Assembly: GCA_035540975.1 (NCBI GenBank)
Contig: DATLFN010000048.1
Location: 1 to 45,307, forward strand
Direction of reading: 5' to 3'
From: Acidimicrobiales bacterium
GTDB taxonomy: Bacteria; Actinomycetota; Acidimicrobiia; Acidimicrobiales; GCA-2861595
Length of the DNA stretch: 45,307 nucleotides
The position numbers and the translations under genes were made by a program. The notes below the pieces were generated by a model that was not told the origin of the DNA, did no database searches, and saw only the letters and a list, made by a program, of their open reading frames with translations. Of the stretch, positions 7,409-42,845 are shown one piece after another; within the stretch, counting starts at the first letter, position 1, and every line of letters starts with the position of its first letter.

Positions 7409-8374
7409 ATGCCCGACAAGCAGATCGCCATCCAACGAGCCTGGCAGCGTGACAACGGCAACAGCCGCAGCCGGCCGGCCATGCTGGCCATCGCCGGCGA
7501 CAGCGCCGCCGGCAAGACCACCCTCACCCAGGGCCTGGTCGCCGCGTTGGGCGTCTTGCACTGCACGTCGATCTGCACCGACCACTACCACCGCTTCGAC
7601 CGCGAGGAGCGCAAGGACAAGCCGTTCACGCCGCTCCACCCCGACTGCAACTACGTCGAGGTGATGGAGCAGCACCTCCAGCTGATCGCCCTGGGCCAGC
7701 CCATCCTCCAGCCGGTGTACGACCACAGCAACGGCACGCTGACCCGCCCGATCCTGATCGAGCCCCGGGACTACGTGATCATCGAGGGCCTGCTCCCTCT
7801 GCACTCCAAGCTGTCGCGGGCGTGCTTCGACATCGGCGTGTACCTGGACCCGCCCGAGGAGATCCGCTACGACTGGAAGATCAAGCGGGACACGTCCAAG
7901 CGGGGCTACACCGAGGAGCAGGTGCGGGCCGACCTGGAGAAGCGGGAGCCCGAGTCGGCCGAGTTCATCCGTCCCCAGCGGGCCCACGCCGACATCGTCG
8001 TTCGCTTCGCGCCGATCGAGGAGCGCGGCGAGTCGGCGGACGACCCGCTCAGCGCCACCCTGCTGCTCCGGCCCACGGCGCCGCACCCCGACCTGGCCAG
8101 CATCCTCACCGAGGACGTGAGCAAGGCCATCCACATGAAGCTGACCCGCGACGACGACGGCAAGCCGGTCGACGCCGTCCACATCCACGCCTACGCGGAC
8201 CCCGAGGTCACCGAGAAGGTGAAGCAGGCCATCTGGGACCAGCTCGGCGTGGCGGAGCCGCTGCCCGACACCCTGGGCGAGCTCGAGCCGGGCGGCCCCC
8301 GCAGCGAGCCGCTGGCGCTCACCCAGCTGCTCCTCCTCTTCCACCTCATCCAGGCGCGGAACTCGACCGCGTAG
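7409..8374 (+). CDS. prk: Phosphoribulokinase, class II (cyanobacterial/plant-like)
   Basis: The protein has 321 residues. P-loop GDSAAGKTT is at 30-38; DHYHRFDREERKD, LHPDCNYVEVMEQHL, PVYDHSNGTL and IIEGLLPLHS follow in the family order, then YDWKIKRDTSKRG. It phosphorylates ribulose-5-phosphate to ribulose-1,5-bisphosphate, the RuBisCO substrate. Length and the WKI.RD..KRG segment resemble class II enzymes more than proteobacterial CbbP. The paired regulatory cysteines of plant enzymes are not obvious. ATG 7409 has GAGG 8 nt upstream. A hairpin repeat and a strong terminator follow directly. Its presence strongly suggests CO2 fixation elsewhere in the genome. Confidence 0.93.
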   Translation: MPDKQIAIQRAWQRDNGNSRSRPAMLAIAGDSAAGKTTLTQGLVAALGVLHCTSICTDHYHRFDREERKDKPFTPLHPDCNYVEVMEQHLQLIALGQPILQPVYDHSNGTLTRPILIEPRDYVIIEGLLPLHSKLSRACFDIGVYLDPPEEIRYDWKIKRDTSKRGYTEEQVRADLEKREPESAEFIRPQRAHADIVVRFAPIEERGESADDPLSATLLLRPTAPHPDLASILTEDVSKAIHMKLTRDDDGKPVDAVHIHAYADPEVTEKVKQAIWDQLGVAEPLPDTLGELEPGGPRSEPLALTQLLLLFHLIQARNSTA

Positions 8375-8378
8375 GTTT

Positions 8379-8517
8379 CGCCGTCGCAGCCGGAGGCTGC
8401 TCGGCGAGTCCGGTGGGGAGAAGGGCGCCGGCGGAGCCGGCGCCCTTCTCGCTGTCACCTCGTTCTCGGCCGGCAGCCGGGGGGCCGCCTGCGGCGGCGT
8501 CCGGCGGCCGCCGGCCT
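8379..8517. repeat. Composite intergenic repeat, copy 1 (after prk)
   Basis: This shares two blocks with 42664-42800. Block A (8379-8406) folds as a two-step hairpin, CGCCG / GCAGCC with a GGA loop / GGCTGC / CGGCG. Block B (8467-8517) includes GGGGCCGCCTGCGGCGGC and GGCCGCCGGCCT. Spacing between the blocks is 60 nt in both copies. Copy A begins 4 nt after the prk stop codon. Confidence 0.75.
8418..8450. terminator. Strong intrinsic-type hairpin after prk
   Basis: A 15-bp perfect stem (8418-8432 with 8436-8450) is closed by a GGA triloop. It lies between prk and the convergent CooC-like gene and can serve both strands. No long T-run follows. Confidence 0.75.
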
Positions 8518-8584
8518 CCTGGCCCGTTCGGTCGCGTTGGCGACTGCTCTGCCCTTGCCTTTGCTTCGCTCGGCTCGCCTCGCT

Positions 8585-22130: not shown

Positions 22131-23561
22131 ATGCCGCCGGGAGGACGAGAACGCCGACGCACAGCCGCCGAGTGGCGACCCCGGGTGGCGGCGGGGGCGT
22201 TGGCCGCGGTCCTGGTGCTGGCCTTCACGCTGCCCGAGCTGGCGACCGCCGGACCGGCCGCCGGCGTGGTGCTCAGCGCCCGGGCCGACGCCGGGCTGCC
22301 GGCCGTCGCCGAGCACGACGGTCTCGACTCCGTGGCGGCCAGCCACGCCGCCACCATGGCGGCCAGGGCGTCGCTCTACCACCTGCCCGGCCTGGCCGAC
22401 GCCATCGGGGCGGTGGTGCCCGACTGGACCCGAGTCGGCCAGAACGTGGGCGTCGGCGCGTCGATCGGCGAGGTCGAGGCCGGTCTGCTGGCGTCGGCCC
22501 CGCACCGGGCCAACATCCTCGGGGACTTCACCCTGGTCGGCACGGGGGCGGTCACCAGCGCCGACGGGCGGGTGTGGGTGGCCCAGATGTTCGCCAAGAC
22601 GGCGGCCGCGGCGACCGCGGCGCCGGCGGCGGTGGCGCCCGCTCCGGCGGCTGCTCCGGCTGTACCGAGGGCGTCCCGGTCGGCGCCGCGCACGCCGCCT
22701 GCGCCGCGGCCGGCGCCCGTCCGGCCCCCCGAGGCGGCGCCCGTCGCTCCCGTCACCACGCGCGGGATCGTGGCCGCCGCCTCGGCCCGCGTCCGGCGCT
22801 GGGGCCTGCCCACGCGCGGCGGGTACTGGCTGGCCAGCGCCGACGGCGGCGTGTTCGCCTACGGCCGGGTGCCCGTTTTCCCGTCGCTCGCCGACGCCGC
22901 CCTCAACGCGCCGGTCGTGGCCCTGGTCCCGCTCAAGGGCGCCAACGGGTACTGGCTGGCGTCGGCCGACGGCGGCGTGTTCGCCTTCGGCGCCGCGCCC
23001 TACCTCGACTCGCTGGCCGGTCGCCCGCTGAACGCCCCCATCGTCGCCATGGCGGGCGCGGCAGACGAGAACGGCTACTGGCTGGCCGGGGCGGACGGGG
23101 GGGTCTACGCCTTCGGCTCCGCTCCGTACCACGGCGGCCTGGGCGGCGCCGGGACGGGCGCCGCGCCGATCGTCGCCCTGGCGCCCACCCCGTCGGGACA
23201 GGGGTACTGGCTGGTGGCGTCGGACGGCGCCGTGTACGCCTTCGGCGACGCGCCGTACCTGGGCGGGCTGACCGGCCGGTCGGGCTCCGGTCGCGTCGTC
23301 GGCCTCGAGCCCACCCGTACCGGGGACGGCTACCTGCTGGTGTCGGCCGACGGCGGGGTCTTCGCCTTCGGCGACGCCCACTTCGCCGGCTCCATGGCGG
23401 GCCAGGCGATGAACGCGCCGGTCACGGCCGTCGACCTCACGGCGAGCGGCCGCGGCTATCGACTCGTGTCCGCCGACGGCGGGGTCTTCGCCTTCGGGGA
23501 CGCCCGCTTCGCCGGCGCCGTCGCCGGCCTCCCGCTCAACCCCTGGCTGCCGCGCCACTGA
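22131..23561 (+). CDS. Secreted CAP-domain protein with six GYWL..DGGVFAFG repeats
   Basis: The protein has 476 residues. A basic N-terminus and hydrophobic stretch (about 22-40) form a signal peptide. A CAP/SCP domain (about 45-160) contains HAATMAARASLYHLPG, VGQNVGVG and HRANILGDFTLVGTGAV. A Pro/Ala linker (165-210) leads to six repeats of about 48 residues built on GYWLASADGGVFAFG, probably beta-propeller or beta-solenoid blades on the cell surface. This repeat is common in actinobacterial secreted proteins. The CAP domain may bind lipid or peptidoglycan-linked ligands. It ends just after the sixth repeat. GAGGGGAG precedes the ATG. Confidence 0.88.
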   Translation: MPPGGRERRRTAAEWRPRVAAGALAAVLVLAFTLPELATAGPAAGVVLSARADAGLPAVAEHDGLDSVAASHAATMAARASLYHLPGLADAIGAVVPDWTRVGQNVGVGASIGEVEAGLLASAPHRANILGDFTLVGTGAVTSADGRVWVAQMFAKTAAAATAAPAAVAPAPAAAPAVPRASRSAPRTPPAPRPAPVRPPEAAPVAPVTTRGIVAAASARVRRWGLPTRGGYWLASADGGVFAYGRVPVFPSLADAALNAPVVALVPLKGANGYWLASADGGVFAFGAAPYLDSLAGRPLNAPIVAMAGAADENGYWLAGADGGVYAFGSAPYHGGLGGAGTGAAPIVALAPTPSGQGYWLVASDGAVYAFGDAPYLGGLTGRSGSGRVVGLEPTRTGDGYLLVSADGGVFAFGDAHFAGSMAGQAMNAPVTAVDLTASGRGYRLVSADGGVFAFGDARFAGAVAGLPLNPWLPRH

Positions 23562-36614: not shown

Positions 36615-37886
36615 ATGCCGACGCTGTCCGAGGACCTCGCGTTCCGTGGCCTGATCCACCAGATGACCGATCCGGCCCTGCCGGCGCGGCTGGACGGCGA
36701 GCCGCTCACCGCCTACGCCGGCTTCGACCCGTCGGCGCCGAGCCTCCAGCTCGGGAACCTGGTCGGCGTCCTCAACCTGGTGCGCCTCCAGCGGGCCGGG
36801 CACCGCCCCATCGCCCTGGCCGGCGGGGGGACCGGGATGGTGGGCGACCCCAGCGGCAAGACCGAGGAGCGCAGCCTCCTGGAGGCCGAGGCGCTGGAGG
36901 CCAACGTCGCCGCCATCCGGGCCCAGCTGGAGCGCTTTCTCGACTTCGACGCCGGCGCCCTCCTGGTCGACAACGGCGAGTGGCTGTGGGACGTCGGCCT
37001 GCTCGAGTTCCTCCGCGACGTGGGCAAGCACTTCACCGTCAACGCCATGATCGCCCGGGAGTCGGTGAAGGCCCGCCTGGAGGGCCGCGAGCAGGGCATC
37101 TCCTACACCGAGTTCAGCTACATGCTCCTCCAGGCCTACGACTTCCTCCGCCTGTTCGACCGGCACGGCTGCCGCCTCCAGCTCGGAGGGAGCGACCAGT
37201 GGGGGAACATCGTGTCGGGCGTCGAGCTCATCCGGCGGGTGCGGGGCGGCCAGGCCTACGGCCTGACCACGCCCCTGCTGGTGGACGAGCAGGGGCGCAA
37301 GCTGGGCAAGACGGAGACGGGCACGGTCTGGCTGGACGCCGGCCGCACCAGCCCGTACCAGCTGTTCCAGTACCTGCTGAACACGCCCGACGACCGGGTC
37401 GGCCCCTACCTCCGAGCCCTCACGCTGCTGCCCCGCGAGCGGGTCGAGGAGCTGGACGCGGTGACGGCCGGGCACCCCGAGCGCCGGGAGGGCCAGCGGG
37501 CGCTGGCGCGCGAGGTGGTGACCCTCGTCCACGGCGGGGCGGAGGCGGCCGCGGCCGAGCGGGCCGGGCGGGCCCTGTTCGGCGAGGAGATCGCCGAGCT
37601 GGACGAGGCCAGCCTGCTCGCCGTGTTCGCCGAGGCGCCGTCGACCGTTTTGCCCCGCTCGGCGCTGGAGGGCGAGGGCCTCTCCCTCGTCGAGGCGCTG
37701 GCGGAGTGCGGGCTCACCCCGTCACGGTCGGCCGCCCGCAAGGCGGTGGAGCAGGGCGGCGCCTACGTCAACAACCGGCGCGCCAGCGGGCTCGACCACC
37801 GGCTCACCAGCGCCGACCTCCTGCACGACCGCTACGTCGTCCTCCGCCGCGGGCGGCGGGACCACCACCTGCTCCGGGTCGGCTGA
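36615..37886 (+). CDS. tyrS: Tyrosyl-tRNA synthetase
   Basis: The protein has 423 residues. The class I Rossmann catalytic domain has LTAYAGFDPSAPSLQLGNL, GGGTGMVGDPSGKTEER, YMLLQAYDFLRL, QLGGSDQWGNI and a KMSKS-type loop KLGKT (229-233). The C-terminal S4 RNA-binding domain has SRSAARKAVEQGGAYVNN. It charges tRNA-Tyr. The normal HIGH motif reads QLGN (45-48), so both histidines are replaced; HxGN forms exist in other TyrRS, but Gln at the first position is unusual to my knowledge. Length is normal and everything else is intact. Confidence 0.96.
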   Translation: MPTLSEDLAFRGLIHQMTDPALPARLDGEPLTAYAGFDPSAPSLQLGNLVGVLNLVRLQRAGHRPIALAGGGTGMVGDPSGKTEERSLLEAEALEANVAAIRAQLERFLDFDAGALLVDNGEWLWDVGLLEFLRDVGKHFTVNAMIARESVKARLEGREQGISYTEFSYMLLQAYDFLRLFDRHGCRLQLGGSDQWGNIVSGVELIRRVRGGQAYGLTTPLLVDEQGRKLGKTETGTVWLDAGRTSPYQLFQYLLNTPDDRVGPYLRALTLLPRERVEELDAVTAGHPERREGQRALAREVVTLVHGGAEAAAAERAGRALFGEEIAELDEASLLAVFAEAPSTVLPRSALEGEGLSLVEALAECGLTPSRSAARKAVEQGGAYVNNRRASGLDHRLTSADLLHDRYVVLRRGRRDHHLLRVG

Positions 37887-37997
37887 CGGCGCCGTGCCGC
37901 GACCGCCACGGCGCCATGGCGTGGCAAGGCCGGTGGCCGCACTCGCCGCCGGAGGCGGCCTCTGCGGCTGCGGGCCACCGAGAAAGGACAGTGCGGA

Positions 37998-38022
37998 GGC
38001 GGGCGAGCTCCGCTCGCCCGCC
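37998..38022. terminator. Terminator hairpin between tyrS and a convergent gene
   Basis: An 11-bp perfect stem (GGCGGGCGAGC / GCTCGCCCGCC) has a 3-nt loop that reads GGA on the minus strand. It is the main feature of a 194-bp gap. A shorter GCCGCC-GGA-GGCGGC dyad lies about 40 nt before it. Confidence 0.7.
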
Positions 38023-38080
38023 GGAGCACGATCCAACTCGACCGAATGGAGCGAGCGAAGCGAACGAATGAGGTCGAAGA

Positions 38081-38719
38081 CTACGGCGTGGTGACCCGGC
38101 AGTTGGCCTGCTGGCCCTGGGTGAAGTAGGTGAACCGGGTGAAGCGCACCGACTCGTACTTCCGCGGGGTCGTGAGCCGGTCGGCCGTGAAGCTGGCACT
38201 CGTGCCCGGCGCGATCACCGTGCCGGTGGTGGTGAACCTCACCGTGCGGACGTCGTTGCCCGGGTAGACGACGTCGAGGATGATCTCCTCGACCTCGATG
38301 GCCTGGGTCACCTTGTTGTCGACGGTGGCCTCGGGCGTGAACGACGAGTTGATGGCGGTGGTGACGAGGTCCTTGGCCGTGAACGCCACCGACGCCTGGC
38401 CCGTCCCGCAGGCCGACGGCGACGCCGACAGCGTGGTCGACGTCGAGCTGGTGGTCGTGGCCGCCCGCGTGGTGGTGGTGGTCGCCGGCCTCGTGGTGGT
38501 GGTGGCGGCCGCCGCCGTGGTGGTGGTCGTGTCGCCGGTGACGGGCGGCGCCGTGGTGGTGGTGAAGGGGAACGTCGTGGTCGTGGTGACGGCCGCCTGG
38601 TCGCCGTCGTCCTCGTCGCCGATGTTGCCCAGGCCGAAGGCGACGGCGGCGACGCCGAGGGCCACGACGGCGATCACGGCGACGAAGAGGAGGGTGCGTC
38701 GGGGACCGGAGAGGTTCAC
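38081..38719 (-). CDS. Single-pass membrane protein with Thr-rich linker and small ectodomain
   Basis: The protein has 212 residues from GTG 38719. One N-terminal membrane helix (LLFVAVIAVVALGVAAVAFGLG) is followed by an acidic patch, a long Thr/Ala linker (about 43-100), and a beta-rich C-terminal domain with two Cys (SACGTGQA and QANCRV) that could form a disulfide. It is probably exposed outside the membrane. No family is recognised. It lies 12 nt after the HIT gene on the same strand and is likely co-transcribed. Confidence 0.8.
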   Translation of the reverse strand: MNLSGPRRTLLFVAVIAVVALGVAAVAFGLGNIGDEDDGDQAAVTTTTTFPFTTTTAPPVTGDTTTTTAAAATTTTRPATTTTTRAATTTSSTSTTLSASPSACGTGQASVAFTAKDLVTTAINSSFTPEATVDNKVTQAIEVEEIILDVVYPGNDVRTVRFTTTGTVIAPGTSASFTADRLTTPRKYESVRFTRFTYFTQGQQANCRVTTP

Positions 38720-39661: not shown

Positions 39662-42649
39662 GTGGGCTCTCCCCCCGACGCCGAGGTCGCCGCCCTCGCC
39701 CGTCGCATCGCCGACCTGGGCGCGGGGGAGAAGGCGCGGGTCTACAACCTGTCGTGGTGGAGCGAGCGCATGCTCGGGTGGGCCATGGCGCACCCGAGCT
39801 TCAAGACCCAGCTGTTCCGCTTCGTGGACGTGTTCCCCGCCACCGGCGACGACGCCGACGTGCTCCGCCACATCGACGAGTACTTCGAGGGCGCTGACGC
39901 CCCCAGGGTGATGGAGCTCGGGATCGACCTGGCCGAGCGCATGCCCATGGGCGACAGGATCTCCGCCGGCGTCGCCCGCCGGAACATCGAGCGCATGGCC
40001 CAGCAGTTCATCGCCGGGCCGACCCCGGCGGAGGCGGTGTCGGTCCTCCACCGCCTGTGGCGGCAGGGGAGCGCGTTCACCGTCGACCTGCTCGGCGAGA
40101 AGACCGTCACCGAGGCCGACGCCGACCGGTACGCGGCGCGGGTGGAGGAGCTGTTGCGGGCGCTGGTGAGGGGAACGGCGTCGTGGGCGCCGGACGACCA
40201 CCTCGAGCGCGACGACCTGGGCCCGCTGCCCCGGGCCAACCTGAGCATCAAGCCCACCGCCCTGGCGTCGCTCTACTCGCCCCTCACCCGGGCCGAGGGC
40301 CTCGCCCAGGCCCGGGCCCGGCTGCTCCCCCTCCTGCGGCTGGCCGCCGAGCACGGGGCGTTCGTGTGGTTCGACATGGAGCACTACGACGTCAAGGACC
40401 TGACGCTCGAGCTGTTCCGCGGCCTGCTGGACGAGCCCGAGCTGGCCGAACTGCAGGCCGGCGTCGTCCTCCAGGCCTACCTCAAGGACTCCCGCGACGA
40501 CCTGGCCGACCTCATCGCCTGGGCGTCCTCGCCGGCGCCGGGCGGCGCCCGCCGGGCCCACCCGGTCGGCATCCGGCTGGTGAAGGGCGCCTACTGGGAC
40601 TCCGAGACGATCACGGCCCGGGCCGAGGGCTGGCCGTCGCCGGTGTACTCCCGCAAGGCGGAGACCGACGCCAACTTCGAGCGCTGCGTGCGCCTGCTGC
40701 ACGACCACCACGCGACGGTGCGGGCGGCGTTCGCGTCGCACAACCTGCGGTCCCTCGCCTACGCGGTGAGGTACGCCCAGGCCAACGGCATCCCCGACAC
40801 CGGCTACGAGATCCAGATGCTCTACGGCATGGCGGAGCCCATCCAGGCCGCCATCCGCCGGCTCGGCCTGCGCCTGCGCATCTACGCCCCCGTCGGGGAG
40901 CTGGTCCCCGGCATGGCGTACCTGGTGCGGCGCCTGCTGGAGAACACGTCGAACGAGAGCTTCGTGCGCCACCGCTTCGCCGAGGGGCGCGGGCTGGACG
41001 AGCTCATCGCCGCCCCCGCCGTCGACCGCCTGCCCGACCGCGAGGACCCGGCCCGCCGCCCGGCCACCGACCCCGCCGAGCCGGGGCCCTACGCCCACGA
41101 GCCACCGGCCGAGTGGCGCCGCCCCGACGTCCGGGCCCGCATGGCTGCGGCCGTGGTGGCGGCGCCGTCCGGCTTCGGCGCAGAGGTCCCGGCCGTCATC
41201 GAGGGCAGGCGGGTGACGACGGAGCGCACGATCCAGTCCGTCGACCCGGGGGACCCCGAGACGGTGGTCGCCGTGTCGGCGTCGTGCGGGGCGGCCGAGG
41301 CCGACGCGGCGGTCGCCGCCGCCGAGAAGGCGTGGGAGCGGTGGCGGCGCACGCCGGCGGACGAGCGGGCGTCCGTGCTGTTCCGGGCGGCCGAGTGGAT
41401 GCGCGCCCGCCGCGACGAGTTGTCCGCCCTCCAGGTGTTCGAGGCGGGCAAGCCCTGGGGCGACGCCGACGGCGACGTGTGCGAGGCCATCGACTTCTGC
41501 GAGTACTACGGGCGGGAGATGCTGCGCCTCGACGAGGGCGGCGTGGTGGAGTCGCCGCCGGGCGAGTCGAACGTGCTGCGCTACCAGGGCAAGGGAGTGG
41601 GGGTCGTCATCGCCCCGTGGAACTTCCCCCTCGCCATCCCCACCGGGATGGTGACGGCGGCGCTGGTGGCCGGCAACGCGGTCGTCTTCAAGCCGGCCGA
41701 GCAGACGCCGGCCGTCGCCTACCGGCTGGTGGAGGCGCTGGAGGCGGGGGGCCTGCCGCCGGGGGTTCTCGGCTTCGTTCCCGGCGTGGGCGAGGAGGTG
41801 GGCGCCCACCTGGTCGAGCACCCGGGCGTGGCCTTCGTCACCTTCACCGGTTCCAAGGACGTCGGCCTGCGCATCAACGCGGCGGCGGCCGCCTTCCGTC
41901 CCGGCCAGCGCCACATCAAGCGGGTGGTGGCCGAGCTGGGCGGCAAGAACGCCCTGGTGGTGGACGCCGACGCCGACCTCGACCAGGCCGTTCCCGCCGT
42001 GGCCGCGTCGGCCTTCGGGTACGCCGGGCAGAAGTGCTCCGCCGCGTCCCGGCTGGTCGTCGTCGACGCGGTGTACGACGAGACGGTGGACCGCTTGGTG
42101 CGCCACGTGCGCGAGCTGCCCGTGGGCCATCCCCGGGAGATGGCGGTCAAAGTCGGCCCGGTCATCGACGCCGAGGCGTGGAAGCGCATCCGGGGATGCG
42201 TGGAGCGGGCGCCGCGGGAGGGGACGGTGCTGCTGGCACGCCAGGACGTCCCCTCCGAGGGGTACTTCGTGGGCCCCACCATCGTGGCCGACGTCGCCAC
42301 CACCTCGCCCCTGGCCCGCGACGAGATCTTCGGCCCCGTGCTCACGGTCTTCCGGGCCAGCACCTTCGACCACGCCCTGGAGATCGCCGACGACACCGAC
42401 TTCGCCCTCACGGCCGGGGTGTTCTCCCGCTCGCCCGCACACGTGCGCCGGGCCGCCGCCGAGCTGCGGGCGGGGAACGTCTACGTGAACCGGGGCATCA
42501 CCGGTGCCGTCGTCGGTCGCCAGCCCTTCGGCGGGTACGGGATGTCGGGCGTGGGCTCGAAGGCGGGCGGCCCCGACTACCTCCTCCAGTTCCTCGACCC
42601 CCGCGTCGTCACCGAGAACACCATGCGCCAGGGGTTCGCACCCTCGTAG
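39662..42649 (+). CDS. putA: Bifunctional proline dehydrogenase / P5C dehydrogenase (PutA)
   Basis: The protein has 995 residues. The N-terminal PRODH barrel (about 20-470) has [25 protein letters not shown]-like [28 protein letters not shown] and [21 protein letters not shown]. The C-terminal aldehyde dehydrogenase (about 500-990) has [31 protein letters not shown] and the catalytic Cys in [11 protein letters not shown]. It oxidises proline to glutamate using FAD and NAD with channelled P5C. There is no DNA-binding N-terminus, so it is not a PutA autorepressor. The composite repeat follows the stop. Confidence 0.96.
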
Positions 42650-42663
42650 TCGCCGTCGCAGGT

Positions 42664-42800
42664 CGCCGTCGCAACCGGAGGTTGCTCGGCGAGTTTGATG
42701 GTGCTCCGGCCCGGCCTGTGCCGCCGGGCCTCCGCCCTGACCCCTCCTTGGCCGGCATCCATCGGGGGCCGCCTGCGGCGGCTGGCGTGGCCGCCGGCCT
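42664..42800. repeat. Composite intergenic repeat, copy 2 (after putA)
   Basis: Block A (42664-42691) folds as CGCCG / GCAACC with a GGA loop / GGTTGC / CGGCG. Compared with copy 1, both G>A in the left arm and C>T in the right arm are changed, so pairing is preserved. Block B (42750-42800) shares GGGGCCGCCTGCGGCGGC and GGCCGCCGGCCT with copy 1 at the same spacing. Confidence 0.75.
42708..42730 (+). terminator. Possible terminator hairpin after putA
   Basis: GGCCCGGC (42708-42715) pairs with GCCGGGCC (42723-42730) around a 7-nt loop, between the two blocks of the composite repeat. Confidence 0.45.
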
Positions 42801-42845
42801 GGGGCCGGCCTCTCAACTGCTCAGGGTGTGTTTGCCCTTACGGCC

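Follow-up and report, generated by a model that had tools for sequence, protein, structure and literature searches.

A family of composite hairpin repeats of the REP/MITE kind, probably mobile, adjoins stop codons in Acidimicrobiia

Descriptions of short bacterial repeats usually place them somewhere between genes. The MIRU units of Mycobacterium overlap stop and start codons. They are interspersed actinobacterial units between neighbouring genes, which one paper presents as 40–100-bp units in variable tandem arrays (PMC2734929). REPs, which comprise the GTAG and CGTC super-families, are short imperfect palindromes outside genes that reach high copy numbers, lie mostly downstream of coding regions and in some cases stand no more than 15 nt from a stop codon (PMC12306157, PMC3733652). 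For E. coli REPs at this distance, ribosome stalling and reduced translation have been reported, and REP hairpins can shield RNA from exonucleases (PMC12306157). A second account likewise has REPs lying mostly downstream of genes and reports no dedicated transposase for the CGTC REPs (PMC3733652).

In a window of 45,307 nucleotides (the whole stretch of Acidimicrobiales DNA analysed here) and in the draft genome from which it comes, we identified a real, abundant repeat family of the REP/MITE kind. Our literature search returned no description of this repeat and no paper joining Acidimicrobiia with REPs, or Acidimicrobi- with miniature inverted repeats. Unlike REPs, the present repeat is a three-hairpin composite with interchangeable left ends and without a constant GTAG foot, and a Y1 transposase was not found in six genomes of the family. 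It shares with MIRU its interspersed position between actinobacterial genes and differs, as far as the two were compared by description only, in consisting of hairpin composites instead of tandem units. What is unusual is how closely at least two left-end types, which share one core, sit behind stops: most copies adjoin a stop codon, including copies between ribosomal protein genes.

Three copies at gene ends in the window

The features of the window are listed below with their basis in brackets where given. Genes were called with a codon-usage caller made for this analysis and trained on the window, and some misses in relatives may be gene-call failures. R2 denotes a covariance model of the hairpins H2 and H3.

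8372–8374, + strand: TAG stop codon of the gene at 7409–8374, PRK/uridine kinase family (gene call, Pfam)
8378–8407, + strand: H1 (alpha type), two-step hairpin of copy 1 (sequence, fold)
8418–8450, + strand: H2, middle hairpin of copy 1, with a 15-bp stem and GGA loop (sequence, fold, R2 match 8409–8530)
8468–8516, + strand: H3, two-step hairpin of copy 1, the second GC block of the original prediction (sequence, fold, R2)
37914–38036, − strand: H2 and H3 of the third copy (model R2, 74 bits)
38037–38079, − strand: beta-type left end of the third copy, with a terminal-repeat pattern match at 38060–38078
38081–38083, − strand: TAG stop codon of the gene at 38081–38719, which has no Pfam match
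42647–42649, + strand: TAG stop codon of putA, 39662–42649 (sequence, gene call, Pfam)
42650–42662, + strand: 13 nt repeating part of the left arm of H1 (sequence)
42663–42692, + strand: H1 (alpha type) of copy 2, which carries the compensatory pair change (sequence, fold)
42708–42730, + strand: H2 of copy 2 (sequence, fold, R2 match 42694–42813)
42750–42799, + strand: H3 of copy 2 (sequence, fold, R2)

The original prediction had described two copies, each with a two-step hairpin and a second GC block at the same spacing. Both are present in the sequence, copy 1 at 8378–8516 and copy 2 at 42663–42799, and H3 starts 90 and 87 nt, respectively, from the start of H1. The 30-nt H1 pattern has two matches in the window and none in 100 shuffles, which rules out chance similarity of the two copies. 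The change from GCAGCC/GGCTGC to GCAACC/GGTTGC, on which the predicted selection for RNA or cruciform structure rested, is genuine and keeps the pairing. Both copies also lie behind stops as had been stated, copy 1 3 nt past a TAG and copy 2 13 nt past the TAG of putA, where the intervening 13 nt partly repeat H1 itself. The middle hairpin H2, a third copy on the minus strand with a different left end and the abundance of the family had been missed. The third copy, of the beta type, lies in the gap between two convergent genes whose ends are at 37886 and 38081.

When copy 1 was folded as a whole, all three hairpins appeared and the energy was well below that of shuffles (z −4.57). Copy 2 folded as a whole was weakly better than shuffles (z −1.43), and its H1 stretch alone gave z −2.53. 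No known Rfam RNA family matched the window above its gathering score, and we found no evidence for the suggestion that the element is an sRNA source.

Pairing in the hairpins and spread of the family

The alpha form of the repeat is a composite of the two-step hairpin H1, the middle hairpin H2 and the two-step hairpin H3; the latter two emerge from an alignment of 28 copies behind H1. In the drawn H2+H3 structure, 89.3% of cells pair compared with 82.1 in shuffles, and two-sided changes occur at 15 of 29 pairs (6.6 when shuffled) and in 46 cells (13.1 when shuffled). The covariation score of 0.182, against 0.069 for shuffles, was reached by 0 of 500 shuffles, and shifting the partner by 1–3 columns removed most of the signal. 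The 28 copies were picked by eye as well formed, a choice that biases these values towards the drawn structure. Unconstrained RNAalifold placed 22 pairs in the same hairpins H2 and H3, 14 of them with two-sided changes. For H1, the 19 copies of the own genome hold nine cells of two-sided change at 2 of 12 pairs; across all genomes, 108 distinct strings, each required to form 9 or more of the 11 pairs, show such changes at 11 of 11 scored pairs and in 158 cells. All three hairpins therefore show pair-preserving two-sided changes.

Selection on the RNA strand is expected to leave more G-U than A-C intermediates. The observed ratios were 13:10 in H1, 5:5 in H2 and 5:8 in H3, with a lean to G-U (12:4) confined to the weak outer stem of H2. 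Because the two kinds of intermediate are about equally frequent, the pairing changes are no proof that selection acts on RNA; inverted repeats can also stay paired through template correction at the DNA level. The paired changes show that complementarity is maintained, without indicating whether this happens in RNA or in DNA.

The draft of the own genome comprises 171 contigs totalling 3.45 Mb and is 97% complete. It contains 19 matches to the 30-nt H1 pattern at up to three mismatches, with none for the reversed control. The genome-wide covariance-model search that the original prediction had proposed as its check returned many further copies: R1, the model of H1, has 37 matches at E ≤ 0.01 and 47 at E ≤ 1, and R2 has 72 at E ≤ 0.01. 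The union, which took the best 32 R1 matches and the 55 beta-end matches with up to two mismatches, amounts to about 88 loci carrying at least one mark, of which 38 combine R2 with a beta end, 22 combine R1 with R2, 11 have a beta end only, 9 have R2 only and 8 have R1 only.

R1 matches at E ≤ 0.01 are present in six of six family genomes (37, 7, 21, 5, 20 and 33 matches), which are drafts of 85–98% completeness. Across the class, R1 found matches in 2 of 198 genomes (E ≤ 1e-6), namely the own genome and one further genome of its family, and R2 in 1 of 119 (E ≤ 1e-4); both searches ran stricter filters that lose weak matches, and the beta-bearing genome G287 was probably in neither sample. With an exact-pattern scan of species genomes, we recovered 54 loci from 18 named assemblies (distinguished by accession prefix), whose titles read Acidimicrobiia, Acidimicrobiales, Acidimicrobiaceae, Actinobacteria, Actinomycetes or Actinomycetota, with one exception titled Acidobacteria. 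The beta left end, at up to two mismatches, matched in 11 of 118 genomes, including G287 from another family with 51 matches, where the two loci inspected both carry H2 and H3. In one locus of that genome (L315), two H2+H3 copies lie close together. One scan of viral contigs gave no match to the alpha pattern.

Placement behind gene ends and interchangeable left ends

A coding stop between −6 and 20 nt ahead of H1 was found for 102 of 143 testable alpha copies, compared with 44 of 2593 random positions. The family and named groups share genomes, and copies in the same context were counted once. By group, a sense stop precedes 22 of 29 copies in the own genome, 45 of 76 in the family and 35 of 38 in named assemblies, mostly at 0–6 nt, against 11 of 477, 18 of 1413 and 15 of 703 random positions in the same loci; antisense stops number 0, 5 and 3, respectively. 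Sense orientation is strongly preferred. The stops ahead of alpha copies are TGA, TAG or TAA, and the bases before H1 vary. The core behaves alike, with 52 of the 71 R2 copies that have a locus (one of 72 has none) lying 60 nt or less from a sense stop. Alpha copies also stand a few nucleotides behind tRNA-Tyr in the own genome (L017) and behind tRNA-SeC in two relatives of different genera (L141, L199). By eye, one alpha copy lies between divergent genes (L009) and two are antisense (L014, L005). The predicted dispersed, REP-like family at gene 3' ends with covarying pairs is thus borne out by its copies, by their adjacency to stops and by the two-sided changes.

About half of the 72 R2 places are without an alpha H1 and start instead with the unrelated beta sequence TTCGACCTCATTCGTTCGCTTCGCTCACTCCATTCGGTCGAG, and a few start with a third left-end type, gamma. 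The beta left end has 61 matches at up to three mismatches in the own genome. The two ends of beta copies are inverted, the left reading CTAG-NNC-TTCGACCTCATTCGTTCGC and the right GCGAACG...GGTC-ANGGNN-CTAG. Well-kept beta copies, also in G287, have these inverted ends with CTAG on both sides, as does the copy between rplR and rpsE of the own genome (TTCTAG-TGCTTCGACC...GGTCACGGCA-CTAG), where the empty sites hold a single CTAG. Such copies resemble MITEs: they are about 200 bp long and numerous, with no gene inside. Unlike MITEs, they have no autonomous partner among the own beta ends inspected, where the leftover matches are partial copies, again mostly behind stops, and they show a tight sense preference for the bases right past a stop. 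The alpha copies differ further from MITEs, as judged by eye, in having no clear right terminal repeat or target duplication and no consistent end after H3.

For beta, a coding stop accompanies 29 of 38 copies (41 rows less three non-beta rows removed by hand), in 20 cases at a distance of exactly 3 nt, and 9 of the 38 have no coding stop. Of the 29 copies that have a coding stop, 10 show CTAG there, compared with 34 of 361 background gene ends, and several beta left ends read GTAG or CTGA instead. The window contains 11 CTAG in total, five at stop codons, four between genes and only two inside genes, so an element that targets CTAG would tend to lodge at stops. This leaves part of the placement unexplained, as CTAG is found at only 10 of the 29 copies and the sense bias exists although CTAG is a palindrome.

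Long direct repeats flanking beta copies, considered as a possible rule, were ruled out as such, being clear in only 2 of 39 copies (control scores ran up to 14) and not clearly so in 37. One beta copy (L224, G000:C75:6694–6815, + strand) is flanked by 32-bp direct repeats that include the upstream gene end and its stop codon, and another (L221, G000:C157:7413–7534, + strand) by 17–20-bp direct repeats that likewise include the upstream gene end and stop.

Filled and empty sites, and the origin of the family

The 3' end of putA is filled in the own genome (G000) and empty at the four long orthologues of G001, G002, G003 and G005 (74–85% identity), G004 having no full-length match. Between genes that we take, by recognition of the proteins, to be rplN and rplX, an alpha copy follows TGATG in the own genome and in G004, whereas G002 and G003 have an overlapping TGATG junction and G001 and G005 have short gaps. 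Between the genes presumed on the same basis to be rplR and rpsE, the own genome carries a beta copy, G001–G005 have gaps of 12–106 nt without the element, and alpha copies lie behind the same stop in two named assemblies. Gene ends that are filled here and empty in relatives indicate that copies come and go, and the beta copy here at a site with alpha copies elsewhere indicates that one site can take different subtypes. The pattern of presence and absence could also arise through losses instead of gains. In the rplR-rpsE gap of G005 (L313), we observed a different short tandem repeat.

That the family is mobile is quite likely. The reading that we prefer as a whole, and consider likely, is of REP/MITE-like non-autonomous mobile repeats in an Acidimicrobiia family that lie mostly directly behind genes. 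The elements are about 100–220 bp long and carry the conserved H2+H3 core behind an alpha (H1), beta (the inverted terminal sequence NNCTTCGACCTCATTCGTTCGC beside CTAG) or gamma left end. Copies, which mostly lie in sense 0–6 nt past a stop and in a few instances immediately after a tRNA gene, would be gained one by one, moved by a putative transposase. The beta form would target CTAG, which in this DNA of 74% GC would be met mainly at stop codons or between genes. IS630, IS5 and IS701 are transposase families that favour CTAG.

A 3'-UTR effect may, tentatively, be the reason why copies persist behind genes. In mRNA, a hairpin beside the stop codon would protect the 3' end or slow ribosomes as they terminate, effects that have been reported for REPs of E. 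coli, and such an effect is plausible because the element has the same stop-adjacent geometry. Less likely is a terminator role, in which H2 and H3 would end transcripts behind genes, or serve in 3' processing, and copies would be kept for that purpose. The sense position directly past stops, the strong GC stems and a T/C-rich stretch about 12–16 nt past the H2 stem agree with this unlikely role, but none of the three window copies has a T-tract terminator-like site, with a T tract at once after the stem as in intrinsic terminators. Moreover, copies sit inside the gene strings rplN-rplX and rplR-rpsE, and convergent ends are not enriched (30 co-directional to 22 convergent, against 31:16 for window gene ends, a small baseline; Fisher p 0.42).

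It is improbable that the element is instead an ancestral structured 3'-UTR RNA, possibly protein-bound, that was inherited vertically and lost in places. The rplN and rplR sites are occupied in several genera, and the sequence and pairing of H1 are strongly conserved, in keeping with such an RNA; against it, G004 and G005 belong to one genus and have a filled and an empty rplN site, respectively, the rplR-rpsE site holds different subtypes in different genomes, and the own genome and G004 have different H2 sequences at rplN. We give a similarly low probability to insertion aimed at gene 3' ends as such, in sense and a few bases from TAG, TGA or TAA stops as well as behind tRNAs. Target choice may then read the ends of transcription or translation and not a fixed DNA word, because the same gene end would have been hit independently by different subtypes, the stops vary and tRNA ends are included. 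Classical REPs moved by a RAYT (the GTAG-tagged, IS200/IS605-type transposase) would account for short palindromes that occur many times behind coding regions, and some of the REPs in E. coli are likewise reported to stand no more than 15 nt from a stop codon, but this origin is very improbable given that Y1_Tnp was found in 0 of 6 family genomes (drafts), with a control positive in 5 of 14 known genomes, that GTAG is not a constant foot and that alpha copies follow TGA, TAG or TAA.

The REP/MITE-like, probably mobile family poses the question of how stop-adjacent placement arises without a known transposase. Its numerous natural insertions, some of which have unoccupied counterparts in relatives, bear on the effect of a hairpin at the stop codon on translation, mRNA decay and downstream genes. 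As a separate observation, the window contains six tandem copies about 126 bp apart within coding sequence at 22821–23553.
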